Source: Treponema sp. | Lineage (GTDB): Bacteria > Spirochaetota > Spirochaetia > Treponematales > Treponemataceae | DNA: 52,388 bases | Reading direction: 5' to 3' | Assembly (NCBI GenBank): GCA_012520945.1 | Contig: JAAYNH010000032.1 | Location: 1 to 52,388, forward strand | In this document: positions 2,791 through 27,218 of the stretch, piece by piece | How positions within the stretch are numbered: position 1 is the stretch's first letter | Layout of the letters: each line of letters opens with the position of its first letter | Made by a program: the position numbers and the translations under genes | The notes under the pieces: generated by a model | Database searches by the model: none | Told to the model about the DNA's origin: nothing | The model's input: the letters and a program-made list of their open reading frames with translations, nothing else

Positions 2791-4791
2791 TTATTTTACA
2801 AGTAGCTTGTTTAAACGTTTAACAAAATCTGCAGGATCTTCTAGTTCTGCTCCGGAAATTAAAAGTGCTTGGTCTAGTAAAACCGAAGAAATATCTGCAA
2901 TATAATCTTTGTCATCCGTATCTTTTAATTTTGCAACAAGAGCGTGGTCAGCATTTACTTCCAGAATAGGTTTTACGGCTCCAAATCCTGCTTGCCCCAT
3001 CGCTTTCATCATACGTTCCATTTGTAGTGACGGATCGTTTTCGTCGACAACAATACATGAAGGAGAGTCGGAAAGGCGCTTTGAAAGATGCACATCCTTA
3101 ACGCGTTCCCCCAATGCAGATTTAATTTTTTCAATGACACCTTTAAATTCTTTTTCCTTAGATTTGTTTTTATCGACACCAAGTTCTTCATCACTACCGG
3201 CACGGTTTACAGCTTTTAAATCAAAGTCTTTATATTTATTTAAAGATGGAATAACTATGTCATCAATATCATCTGCCATAATTAAAACTTCAAAGCCTTT
3301 CGCAGTATAAGCTTCCAAAAGGGGACTCGAACGTAGTTTTTTTTCATCTCCTCCGGTAATATAATAAATGGCTTTTTGGTCAGGTAACATTCTCTGAACA
3401 TAATCTGCAAAACTAGTCCAATTATCCGTGCCTATTCCTGCTTCATTAGTAGATTTGAAACGCACAATTTCCGCAATTTCTTCGCGATTTGCAAAGTCGG
3501 AATACAAGCCTTCTTTTAATGGCCTGTTATATTGGCTTACAAATTTGTTCCATTTATCGATTGTTGCTTTGTTTTCTGCACTTGGTTCTGTTCCTTCAGG
3601 AGCATCTTTCAACGTTTGTTTTACTTTGTCAGCATCTTCGCCCATTTTTTTGAATTCGCTCAAAAGTTTTTTGACGGATTGATTTTTAATTGTTGAAAGA
3701 ATGCGATTTTGTTGTAAAATTTCGCGACTCACGTTTAATGGTAAATCTTCCGAGTCAATGATACCTCTAACAAAACGTAAGTATGAAGGCAAAAGTTCTC
3801 TATCATCGTCTGTAATAAAAACGCGTTTTACATATAATTTTACACCACTTTTATAGTCCGCTTGATACATATCGAACGGAGCGTCTTCAGGAACATAAAA
3901 TAAAGTCGTATATTCTTGAGTTCCTTCAGCGTGAGTGTGAATATATGTGAGTGGATCAGTGCTGTCATGGCTAATTGTTTTGTAAAAATCATTGTAATCT
4001 TCTTCTTTCAAAGATGATTTTGAGCGTTTCCATAATGCACTTGCACTGTTGATTTTTTCTATTTTTGCTTCGCTACCGGTTTCTTTGCCCTTATCATCGT
4101 ATTTTTTTTGTACATAATGTAAATAAATAGGAAAGGCAATGTGGTCAGAATATTTTTTAATTAATTCTTCTACTTTCCAGCGAGAAGCATATTCGGTGGA
4201 TTCATCGTTTAGTTTCATTACAATTGCCGAACCGCATTCGCTTGCCCATTCTTTCGTGTTGTCAGTGTCAAAACCATATGTTTTAGCAATATCGCTATCC
4301 AAAGATAATTCTTCAAGTTCATATGAGTTTGTGCCTTCACTTGACCAATGCCAAAGAGAAGATGTGGCGGCCTTACGTGTATAAACATCAATTTTGCTTG
4401 ATGCCATAAAAGCACTGTAAAATCCTACACCAAACTGACCAATAAGTGCACTGTCTTTTTGAGCATTTTTTTCCAGTTGTTCTAAAAAAACTTTTGTTCC
4501 CGAGCGAGCTATCGTTCCTAGATTTGCATTTAAATCATCGCTATCCATGCCAATTCCGCTATCGCGAACAGTGAGAGTTTTTTTCTCTTCATCGAACATA
4601 ATATCTATGCGTGGATTAAATTTTACGCTTTTATATTTGTCATCTGAAATATTTAGATATTTTAATTTGTCCAAAGCATCACTTGCGTTAGAAACTATTT
4701 CGCGCAAAAAAATGTCTTTGTTTGAATACATTGAGTGAATAATAAGTTTTAATAGTTGATTCACTTCTGTTTGAAATTGAAATTTTGCCAT
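2791..4791 (-). CDS. htpG: HtpG, bacterial Hsp90 chaperone
   Basis: The 666-residue protein has the complete Hsp90 layout. The N-terminal GHKL ATPase includes LREIVSNASDALDK (with the catalytic Glu and Mg-binding Asn near residues 30-34), VRDSGIGMD near residues 75-83, and GQFGVGFYSAFM near residues 118-129. Middle and C-terminal dimerisation domains follow. It is slightly longer than E. coli HtpG (about 624 residues), with lysine- and aspartate-rich insertions. The ATG has AAGAAGG a few bases upstream. It is monocistronic with its own terminator and lies divergently from the pectate lyase operon. The product is a cytoplasmic ATP-dependent folding chaperone. Confidence 0.97.
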   Translation of the reverse strand: MAKFQFQTEVNQLLKLIIHSMYSNKDIFLREIVSNASDALDKLKYLNISDDKYKSVKFNPRIDIMFDEEKKTLTVRDSGIGMDSDDLNANLGTIARSGTKVFLEQLEKNAQKDSALIGQFGVGFYSAFMASSKIDVYTRKAATSSLWHWSSEGTNSYELEELSLDSDIAKTYGFDTDNTKEWASECGSAIVMKLNDESTEYASRWKVEELIKKYSDHIAFPIYLHYVQKKYDDKGKETGSEAKIEKINSASALWKRSKSSLKEEDYNDFYKTISHDSTDPLTYIHTHAEGTQEYTTLFYVPEDAPFDMYQADYKSGVKLYVKRVFITDDDRELLPSYLRFVRGIIDSEDLPLNVSREILQQNRILSTIKNQSVKKLLSEFKKMGEDADKVKQTLKDAPEGTEPSAENKATIDKWNKFVSQYNRPLKEGLYSDFANREEIAEIVRFKSTNEAGIGTDNWTSFADYVQRMLPDQKAIYYITGGDEKKLRSSPLLEAYTAKGFEVLIMADDIDDIVIPSLNKYKDFDLKAVNRAGSDEELGVDKNKSKEKEFKGVIEKIKSALGERVKDVHLSKRLSDSPSCIVVDENDPSLQMERMMKAMGQAGFGAVKPILEVNADHALVAKLKDTDDKDYIADISSVLLDQALLISGAELEDPADFVKRLNKLLVK

Positions 4792-24948: not shown

Positions 24949-25752
24949 ATGCGCGTACTCGTTCGTCCTGATTATGAAGCTTGCTCTGTATGGGCGGCAA
25001 ATCATATTGCAAAAAGAATTATTGATTTTAATCCTACCGCGAAGAAACCTTTTGTTTTAGGTTTGCCTACCGGAAGTACTCCTTTAGGAACGTATAAAGA
25101 ACTTATTAAAATGAACAAAGCCGGAAAGGTTTCTTTCAAAAATGTTGTTACATTTAATATGGATGAGTATGTTGGTTTGCCGCCTGACCATCCTCAAAGT
25201 TATCATAGATTTATGTGGGATAACTTTTTTAGTCATATTGATATTCAAAAAAAAAATATTCATCTTTTGGACGGAATGGCAAAAGATTTAGAAGCAGAAT
25301 GTGTGGCTTATGAAAAAGCTATTGCTGATGTAGGTGGAATTCACTTGTTTTTGGGCGGAGTTGGTGTTGATGGACATATTGCCTTTAATGAACCGGGTTC
25401 TTCATTGACAAGCCGTACACGTAAAAAGACGTTGACTGTTGAAACTATTTTAGTTAATTCCAGGTTTTTTGGTGGAGATATGACTCAAGTGCCATCGACG
25501 GCTTTGACTGTTGGCGTGGGAACTATTACTGATGCTAAGGAAGTTATGATTTTAATTACGGGCTATAATAAGGCACGTGCATTAAAGCATGCTGTTGAAG
25601 GCGGAGTTAGCCAAATGTGGACAGTAAGTGTTTTGCAACTTCATCCTAAGGCAATTATTGTTTGTGATGAAGATGCTACAAATGAATTAAAAGTAGGAAC
25701 TCTAAAATATTTTATGAATACTGAAAGTAAAAAATTTGATAATTCCTTTTAA
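24949..25752 (+). CDS. nagB: Glucosamine-6-phosphate deaminase
   Basis: The 267-residue protein matches E. coli NagB almost residue for residue in length. Catalytic residues sit at the same numbers: Asp72 in [10 protein letters not shown], Asp141, His143 and Glu148 in [14 protein letters not shown]. It converts glucosamine-6-phosphate to fructose-6-phosphate and ammonia. The SD AGGAA precedes the ATG. It may be co-transcribed with the uracil permease (23-base gap), though the roles are unrelated. It is followed by the GC-rich foldable element. Confidence 0.96.
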
Positions 25753-25794: not shown

Positions 25795-25898
25795 GCGTTA
25801 GCGATTGTAGTGGCGACGGAGTCGTTCCGAAGGAATGGAGCGATAGCGGAACCACGAAAAGCGCGACGGCAACTTGCTTGCCGTAACGCCCTTTTTTT
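25795..25898 (+). other. GC-rich multi-hairpin element between nagB and purD
   Basis: By my count 57 of the first 97 bases are G or C (about 59%), an island in AT-rich DNA. A closing stem GCGTTA (25795-25800) / TAACGC (25884-25889) encloses GTGG...CCAC, CGAC-gga-GTCG, TTCC-gaa-GGAA and a strong hairpin CGGCAA-cttgc-TTGCCG (25867-25883). CC and seven T residues follow. It could be a complex terminator for nagB, a dispersed repeat, or a non-coding RNA. A minus-strand ORF can be drawn through it but has no sign of being real. No second copy is visible in the window. Confidence 0.6.
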
Positions 25899-25913: not shown

Positions 25914-27218
25914 ATGAAAGTAGTAGTTTTAGGTTCAGGCGGTCGTGAACATGCTATTTGTTGGCGGCTTGCTCAGAGTGCTTTGGTAAAAGAAGTTGTA
26001 TGTGTGCCGGGCAACGGTGGCACTGCTTGTGAAAAAAAATGTCGCAATGTAATGGCGAGTACAGCTGAAGAAATGGTTGAAGTTGCTATTGCGGAAAAAT
26101 GTGCTTTTGTGGTGGTGGGGCCGGAGGAGCCGTTAGTATATGGGATTGCGGATAAGTTATGGGCGGCAGGTGTACCGGTAATTGGGCCAAAAAGGCAAGG
26201 AGCACAACTCGAGGCAAGTAAAGATGTGGCAAAGGCTTTTATGGAAAAATATAATGTGGCATGTGCAAAAAGTGTAACGGTGACAAAAGCAGAAGAAGCA
26301 CATGAATATATAGAAAAGTTCGGTGTACCAATTGTGATTAAGGCAGACGGTTTGGCGGCGGGCAAGGGCGTAGTTGTTGCAAAAGAGATAAAAGATGCAC
26401 ATGATGCGATTGACAGCTTTATGAAAGATGGTTTACTAGGGGATGCAGGAAAAAAAGTTGTTATAGAAGAATATTTAAGAGGCGTGGAAATATCTGTTTT
26501 GGCAGCAGTTTCTGTGTCTCCTACTTCAGCAGAAAATGGCAAAGCGACAATTGTTCCGTTTTTACCTGCACGTGATCATAAACGTTTGAATGACGGTGCT
26601 CAAGGACCAAACACGGGTGGCATGGGTGCGGTTTCTCCATTAGATGATATTTCTGAAAAAACTATGGCGGAGTTTGATGAAAGAATTTTGAAACCTACGT
26701 TAAAAGGCATGGTTACAGAAAAGTATGATTACCGCGGATTTATATTTTTTGGTGTGATGCTTACGGATGACGGGCCTAAGCTTTTGGAATATAATGTTCG
26801 CTTGGGTGATCCGGAAACACAGGCCGTTTTGCCTTTGATGGATTTTGATTTTGCGGCAATGTGTCGCTCAATTCTTGAAGAAGATTTAGATAGTTTTACT
26901 TTTGCATGGAAAGACGGTTATGTTTGTGCTCCTGTTGCGGTTTCCGGCGGCTACCCGGGAAATTATGAAAAAGGCTTGGAAATTTCTGTTGATGATGTTG
27001 CTTTCAGTGCAACCGGTGCAAAGTTGTTTGTTGCTGGAGGTACACTGAAAAATGAAAAGCTTGTTACTAGTGGCGGGCGTGTTTTATCATGTGCGGCATT
27101 TGGTAAAACTTTTGATGAAGCACATAAGGCAAGTTATGATGCAATGAAAGCTGTTTCGTTTGATGGTATGTTTTACCGAAAAGATATTGGTTTGCCGGGT
27201 GCAGCACAGAGTAATTAG
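25914..27218 (+). CDS. purD: Phosphoribosylamine-glycine ligase (GARS)
   Basis: The 434-residue ATP-grasp enzyme performs the second step of purine synthesis, joining glycine to phosphoribosylamine. The N-terminal VLGSGGREHAICWRLAQS is typical. VGPEEPLVYGIAD, KADGLAAGKGVVVAKE (ATP-grasp), the family signature LPARDHKRLNDGAQGPNTGG and the metal-binding YNVRLGDPETQAVLP all follow in order. The length is normal. No other pur gene is next to it. A 189-codon open frame on the opposite strand is a shadow. Confidence 0.97.
   Translation: MKVVVLGSGGREHAICWRLAQSALVKEVVCVPGNGGTACEKKCRNVMASTAEEMVEVAIAEKCAFVVVGPEEPLVYGIADKLWAAGVPVIGPKRQGAQLEASKDVAKAFMEKYNVACAKSVTVTKAEEAHEYIEKFGVPIVIKADGLAAGKGVVVAKEIKDAHDAIDSFMKDGLLGDAGKKVVIEEYLRGVEISVLAAVSVSPTSAENGKATIVPFLPARDHKRLNDGAQGPNTGGMGAVSPLDDISEKTMAEFDERILKPTLKGMVTEKYDYRGFIFFGVMLTDDGPKLLEYNVRLGDPETQAVLPLMDFDFAAMCRSILEEDLDSFTFAWKDGYVCAPVAVSGGYPGNYEKGLEISVDDVAFSATGAKLFVAGGTLKNEKLVTSGGRVLSCAAFGKTFDEAHKASYDAMKAVSFDGMFYRKDIGLPGAAQSN

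Follow-up and report, generated by a model that had tools for sequence, protein, structure and literature searches.

A high-copy branched repeat of Treponema genomes with features of folded single-stranded DNA

What is the short GC-rich island that lies between nagB and purD in a Treponema sp. genome? The window, the whole stretch of 52,388 nt that was analysed (contig JAAYNH010000032.1), has 33.8% GC, as opposed to 58.8% at positions 25795-25891. The island is flanked upstream by a nagB-like gene with a Glucosamine_iso domain (24949-25752) and downstream by purD with GARS N, A and C domains (25914-27218). An initial annotation, made from the letters of the sequence, had described an island of about 59% GC between these genes, with a closing stem, four internal stems and a T run at the end, and had left a dispersed repeat, a complex terminator and a non-coding RNA as options. 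The composition and the flanking genes were as described, and the architecture proved right in outline. A search for tRNA or tmRNA gave no hit, and a 67-codon reverse-strand open reading frame (ORF) spanning it had no support as a gene. The top strand is the folding strand of this copy. Its parts are given below, with pairing percentages from the alignment A4 described further on.

25795..25891, + strand: complete element copy (covariance model R1, 103.2 bits, E 1.2e-26, full model 1-102)
25795..25799, + strand: P1 5' arm GCGTT, partner AACGC at 25885-25889 (90.9% of cells paired, two-sided changes at 5/5 pairs)
25801..25803, + strand: Pb 5' arm GCG, partner CGC at 25862-25864 (98.5% paired)
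25804..25809, + strand: 5' side of a purine-rich internal loop, ATTGTA (consensus ATTGNA), opposite 25856-25861 (from junction base frequencies)
25810..25813, + strand: P2 5' arm GTGG, partner CCAC at 25852-25855 (99.3% paired, two-sided changes at 4/4 pairs)
25814..25824, + strand: P3 hairpin CGAC-GGA-GTCG, loop c(GGA)g of the cGNAg type (100% of cells paired)
25825..25835, + strand: P4 hairpin TTCC-GAA-GGAA, loop c(GAA)g (97.9% paired)
25836..25851, + strand: P5 hairpin T-(GGA)-GC-GATA-GC-(GGA)-A, made up of a T-A pair, a GNA/GNA internal motif, a 2-bp stem and a c(GATA)g loop (99.5% paired)
25856..25861, + strand: 3' side of the purine-rich internal loop, GAAAAG (consensus GNAAAG; from base frequencies)
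25862..25864, + strand: Pb 3' arm CGC (from pairing in A4)
25866..25884, + strand: P6 hairpin ACGGCAA-CTTGC-TTGCCGT, the most variable arm (arms wholly different between copies, pairing kept)
25885..25891, + strand: P1 3' arm AACGC and conserved CC tail (tail in 93/126 copies)
25892..25898, + strand: T7 run directly 3' of the element, not family-wide (downstream T-run in 20/255 copies)

BLASTN found a second copy in the same genome and copies in 13 of 59 relatives, this genome included. Twelve aligned copies (A1) gave the covariance model R1; the window copy belongs to the seed of this model, and the homologues were first detected by plain BLAST. Searches with R1 found 10 copies in the genome of origin (E <0.01) and copies in 76 of 100 sampled Treponemataceae genomes, which bears out the dispersed-repeat option and supplies the homologous copies that the annotation had proposed to look for. 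Three of the 100 genomes carry at least 39 copies, and the 1.1-Mb genome G019 had no R1 match. Two related rumen Treponema MAGs showed at least 148 and at least 149 matches, and the true copy number in both is probably higher. A pattern scan of genomes was matched, among the matches listed, by Spirochaetota contigs throughout except for one filed under a Bacteroidales MAG (NWBO01000166.1). This contig carries the element, and its flank is about 90% identical to a Treponema contig, so it is probably mis-binned. Matches occurred in 56 of 296 Spirochaetota genomes. Most of these 56 are Treponemataceae, and the others are scattered over further families and classes; apart from Treponemataceae itself, the families of its order had no match among the genomes listed. 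Named carriers include T. socranskii, T. vincentii, T. bryantii and T. berlinense. The window had no match in Rfam 15 at the gathering score, and the best sub-threshold hit at E up to 10 reached 13.2 bits, compared to a gathering score of 114. There was likewise no match by BLASTN against phages and plasmids or by the strict pattern in viral contigs; the one viral contig that matched a relaxed pattern was spurious (11.4 bits). No described Treponema repeat of this kind was found in the open-licence literature, subscription literature being outside the search. As far as the libraries searched show, the element is undescribed, and the feature in the window is one copy of a ~100-nt repeat that is interspersed in high copy number through genomes of Treponema and of some other Spirochaetota.

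The consensus fold consists of a closing stem P1, a coaxial stem Pb-P2 with a purine-rich internal loop, and four hairpins, P3 to P6. A three-way junction (P1, Pb, P6) is linked via the coaxial helix to a four-way junction (P2, P3, P4, P5). Given only the MAFFT alignment A1, which is unbiased, RNAalifold recovered Pb and P2-P5 without further guidance. In alignment A2, 126 copies gathered by a DNA pattern that biases the counts for Pb and P2, 97.1% of the pair cells were standard pairs and 22 of 23 pairs had changed on both sides, with a covariation score of 0.397 compared to 0.097 for shuffled alignments and at most 0.050 with slid partners. Alignment A4 comprised 113 copies from genome searches and fetched stretches, collected without the exact DNA pattern of A2; 97.0% of its cells were paired, two-sided changes occurred at 23/23 pairs, and the covariation score was 0.540 against 0.134 after shuffling. 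Because both alignments were fitted to the model, their pair counts lean towards the model structure; the unaided A1 result is free of this bias. Compensatory changes were present in every helix, and two-sided changes in the stems exceeded one-sided ones by 425 to 28. Pb, for example, occurs as GCG/CGC, GGG/CCC, CCG/CGG or GTG/CAC, and the outermost pair of P6 was paired in 89% of copies in both A2 and A4. The annotation had also named covariation and folding energy as checks. Covariation was present in A1, A2 and A4, and the window copy folded better than dinucleotide shuffles with RNA parameters (z -2.50, 2/200 shuffles as good) and with DNA parameters (z -2.84, 0/200).

The unpaired positions were also strongly constrained. 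When ATTGNA was set against GNAAAG in 125 copies, the opposed bases were A.G in 123, T-A in 121, T-A in 120, G.A in 123, a free N.N, and A.G in 123; the second T-A showed five compensatory changes (three to A-T, two to G-C). P5 is bracketed by TGNA (107/126) and GGAA (114/126). If the T and the A of these motifs pair, the P2-P5 four-way junction would contain no unpaired bases, and we infer a gap-free junction. A reading of the GGA motifs as CsrA sites was dropped because their middle base varies (GGA, GAA, GTA, GCA).

A functional structure found in a genome is almost always taken to be RNA. The comparative data here offer a way of separating a DNA fold from an RNA fold, through loop motifs, G-T content and strand asymmetry, and they point towards DNA. 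For each hairpin, the loop was scored on its strongest perfect stem. GNA made up 186 of 244 triloops and GNNA 106 of 161 tetraloops in A2, and 126 of 189 and 116 of 171, respectively, in A4. The GNNA loops were divided between GNRA and GNYA at 54:52 in A2 and 71:45 in A4, a strong purine preference at position 3 being absent from both, and UNCG occurred zero times and once, respectively. The listed GNNA loops of RNase P RNA, in contrast, were all GNRA. We then counted five stable DNA loop motifs, namely d(cGNAg), d(cGNNAg), d(cGNABg), d(cCNNGg) and d(gCNNGc); the tetraloop motifs are reportedly those of Nakano et al. 2002, to go by the title of that paper as cited in PMC5090098. The three- and four-base loops of the top strand matched these motifs in 304 of 405 cases (75%) and 254 of 360 cases (71%), compared to only 12 and 13 loops (3-4%) on the complementary strand. 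Triloops of the d(GNA) type closed by C-G are documented stable DNA loops, and GAA is reported to surpass all other known DNA loops in stability (PMC5815330, PMC9828363).

The pairing rules pointed the same way. G-T pairs made up 1.35% (A2) and 1.17% (A4) of pairs, compared to 9.90% G-U in the RNase P RNA of relatives, a control (A3) of 28 relatives and one RNA family aligned without a covariance model; covariance-model scores may disfavour G-U somewhat. With DNA parameters, the window copy formed P1, Pb, P2 and P6, while its inner arms P3-P5 were unlike the consensus; with RNA parameters, P1 and Pb were absent and a different fold with a terminator-like 3' hairpin appeared. Loops and pairing rules of the DNA type were thus found, and on one strand only, as expected of folded single-stranded DNA. 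The DNA loop motifs, the low G-T content and the DNA-parameter fold therefore favour a top strand folded as single-stranded DNA, although none of them is proof, and GNA loops and G.A motifs are found in RNA also. We regard this as the best supported reading of the sequence data rather than an established one, with a probability of about 0.6. The non-coding RNA option of the annotation keeps some probability, but the loop motifs, near-absent G-U and strand asymmetry fit folded single-stranded DNA better.

We compared individual copies at orthologous sites. Most examined copies were orthologous among four T. socranskii-like species with flanks 90-96% identical, and also between the two rumen MAGs, where the occupied fraction is inflated because the anchors were chosen for matching copies. 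Of 27 orthologous sites (one pair per site), 23 showed lower divergence in the element than in its flanks, and the overall divergence was 3.1% for the element compared to 5.6% for the flanks with four hairpin-exchange sites included. At exchange sites (L300/L320, L312/L335), the scaffold and flanks stayed while whole hairpins were swapped, P4 and P5 giving way to different hairpins that also pair well, a pattern suggestive of exchange from copy to copy. Among the sites compared, none showed a clean insertion flanked by a target-site duplication. Two apparent empty sites among the four T. socranskii-like species looked like deletions, and a candidate gain (L308 compared to L328) was ambiguous, with CTTTTT on both sides and an ill-defined extent of the insert. 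At the intergenic site L311:10584-10715 one species has the element, and the orthologous gap of its close relative (L331, about 4020-4300) holds a different structured element. In G111 and G088, some copies coincide with joints in a rearranged gene order, to which draft assembly could contribute; copies at points where gene order differs between close species would bear on genome rearrangement. A copy 94 nt upstream of purD in L161 was considered as an orthologue of the window copy; its upstream genes differ, and its position was taken as coincidence. Another kind of insert, about 200 bp long and containing GTCATTCCGAAC...CGGAATCTG hairpins, was seen at L303:12096-12316 (G123) and is absent at the orthologous L323 site; it is apparently a further dispersed repeat of these rumen Treponema genomes.

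Several other explanations have to be weighed against folded single-stranded DNA. The element could act as RNA, as a structured domain at many loci serving as a small RNA, a 3' UTR stabiliser or a protein-binding site. The strong covariation, the single folding strand, and the GNA triloops and tandem G.A motifs known in RNA too would all suit such a role, as would the slight tendency of copies to follow a gene of the same orientation (38:22 for the upstream neighbour in A2, 22:15 in a second set). However, G-U pairs at about 1%, the lack of a GNRA preference, the near absence of UNCG, the different fold of the window copy under RNA parameters, and the lack of an Rfam family and of a fixed gene context make it unlikely. 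For the window copy itself, whatever the family does elsewhere, a role as the intrinsic terminator of nagB is conceivable though doubtful: its RNA fold prefers an alternative hairpin, AAAAGCGCGACGGCAA...TTGCCGTAACGCCCTTTTTTT, that ends in T7 and lies 3' of nagB, but a scan of the region for terminator-like sites found none. T-runs follow only 20 of 255 copies (8%) and precede 27 of 255, and a GC-rich hairpin running directly into a T-run is thus no family-wide trait. A terminator role therefore cannot explain the family; the T run described by the annotation is real, and the complex terminator it offered would at most be a local accident of this copy. A third explanation holds that the pairing was made by mutation, through quasi-palindrome correction by template switching together with gene conversion, and that the fold has no function. 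As a DNA-level process, this would also account for the scarce G-T pairs, and both the 425:28 excess of two-sided changes and the exchange of whole hairpins within a kept scaffold are in its favour. It leaves unexplained why unpaired positions are fixed (ATTGNA/GNAAAG, TGNA...GGAA), why C(GNA)G loops are confined to one strand, and why whole orthologous copies diverge slowly, and we consider it quite improbable.

Integron attC sites are folded single-strand DNA in which structure is conserved rather than sequence, and REP/RAYT and integron systems both use single-stranded DNA hairpins folded on one strand. The repeat might accordingly be a REP element moved by a RAYT/IS200-type Y1 transposase or an attC-like site for an integron integrase. 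The Y1 transposase family PF01797 was found in 22 of 100 family genomes but was absent from the genome of origin and from the high-copy genomes G061, G069, G081, G090, G118 and G121. The integron integrase TIGR02249 was found above its curated cut-off in 33 of 100 sampled Treponemataceae, so that integrons are common in the family, but was missing above this cut-off from G061, G069, G081, G090 and G118. Several genomes with at least 29 copies lacked both enzymes, and neither correlated with copy number; both were rejected as partners. Like REP/BIME elements, the repeat is short, intergenic, high-copy, hairpin-forming, strand-specific and patchy across related species. However, REP/BIME elements consist of one or two hairpins, and a REP is an imperfect palindrome of 20-40 nt with a conserved tetranucleotide at its foot, unlike a branched fold of ~100 nt with a three-way and a four-way junction; also unlike REP/RAYT, most high-copy genomes of the element lack a Y1 transposase. 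An attC site is one imperfect hairpin with R and L boxes beside cassettes, as opposed to the branched fold seen here, and the copies were found as single dispersed elements. The ends of the element, 5' GCGTTAG and 3' AACGCCC, contain no RYYYAAC...GTTRRRY pair as read from the sequence, and the combination of an integron integrase with matched R boxes was not found. Both systems are thus highly improbable as an explanation.

Other known systems resemble the element in part. It is dispersed, multi-copy and non-coding with no gene inside, as MITEs are, but unlike these it has no transposon-like terminal inverted repeat matched to a transposase and no shown target-site duplication, and its core structure is far more conserved than that of a decaying MITE. 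The telomere arrays of Streptomyces linear replicons contain single-stranded DNA stems capped by GNA (GCA, GGA) or CTTG loops (PMC7205883). The element shares cGNAg and some gCTTGc loops with these arrays; however, they sit at replicon ends and the element is dispersed, and the likeness noted lies in the folded single strands and the loop types. Because no defining feature of REP/RAYT or attC was found, we placed the family as a variant of interspersed palindromic repeats. Neighbour-gene clustering revealed no family at more than five loci and none enriched, and no fixed gene context was found among the copies. With neither enzyme tracking the element and no enriched neighbour, a partner, if any, is therefore unlinked.

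A clear skew was present at 72 A2 loci, which are not fully independent of one another, and at 50 of them the folding strand was the G-rich one (p 0.0013). It was also the G-rich strand at 8 of the 10 copies in the genome of origin, and at 17:8 and 19:9 in two related genomes, G123 among them, neither of which is significant alone. G-richness usually marks the leading strand. If it does so here, the folding strand would be the lagging-strand template, albeit with a strand bias that is partly confounded with gene orientation. The AT content climbs from 53% to 64% approaching the element, and 83 of 198 copies overlap program-called ORFs of at least 80 codons, which were not vetted as genes.

For folded single-stranded DNA, the following sequence of events may be proposed. 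The top strand would fold once exposed, for example while serving as lagging-strand template or where the duplex is opened by transcription or repair, and the folded DNA could then be bound by a putative protein. It might be the substrate by which a non-autonomous element spreads, with a putative enzyme acting in trans, and no cargo was seen within the element. It might instead be a docking site kept at each locus; individual copies are retained, which suggests that the bound form is of consequence at its own locus. More tentatively, and with the odds somewhat against the statement as a whole, the copies may form an undescribed class of element: its selected form would be a branched single strand of DNA that has a gap-free four-way junction and draws on ultrastable DNA loop motifs. 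It would be kept at as many as hundreds of sites in a genome and be recognised by a putative protein, possibly a new kind of single-stranded DNA transposase or recombinase, or a chromosome-structure factor. If the DNA reading is right, Treponema chromosomes, those of oral and gut species included, hold from a few to hundreds of conserved DNA nanostructures, and the element would be a ready bait for its putative binding protein.

Two minor observations concern the surroundings and variants of the element. Loci of the T. socranskii-like genomes G067, G088, G109 and G111 repeatedly show, no more than about 30 nt from the element, an AT-rich palindrome of the TTAATAATTATTAA type. A second architecture occurs at G123 and G124 loci (L300-L339); it starts with CCTACG or CCTAGC, has a Pb of CGGG...CCCG or CCCG...CGGG, is without the usual GCGT...ACGC closing stem, and often ends 3' in C-T-G-S-T-C-C-A-G.
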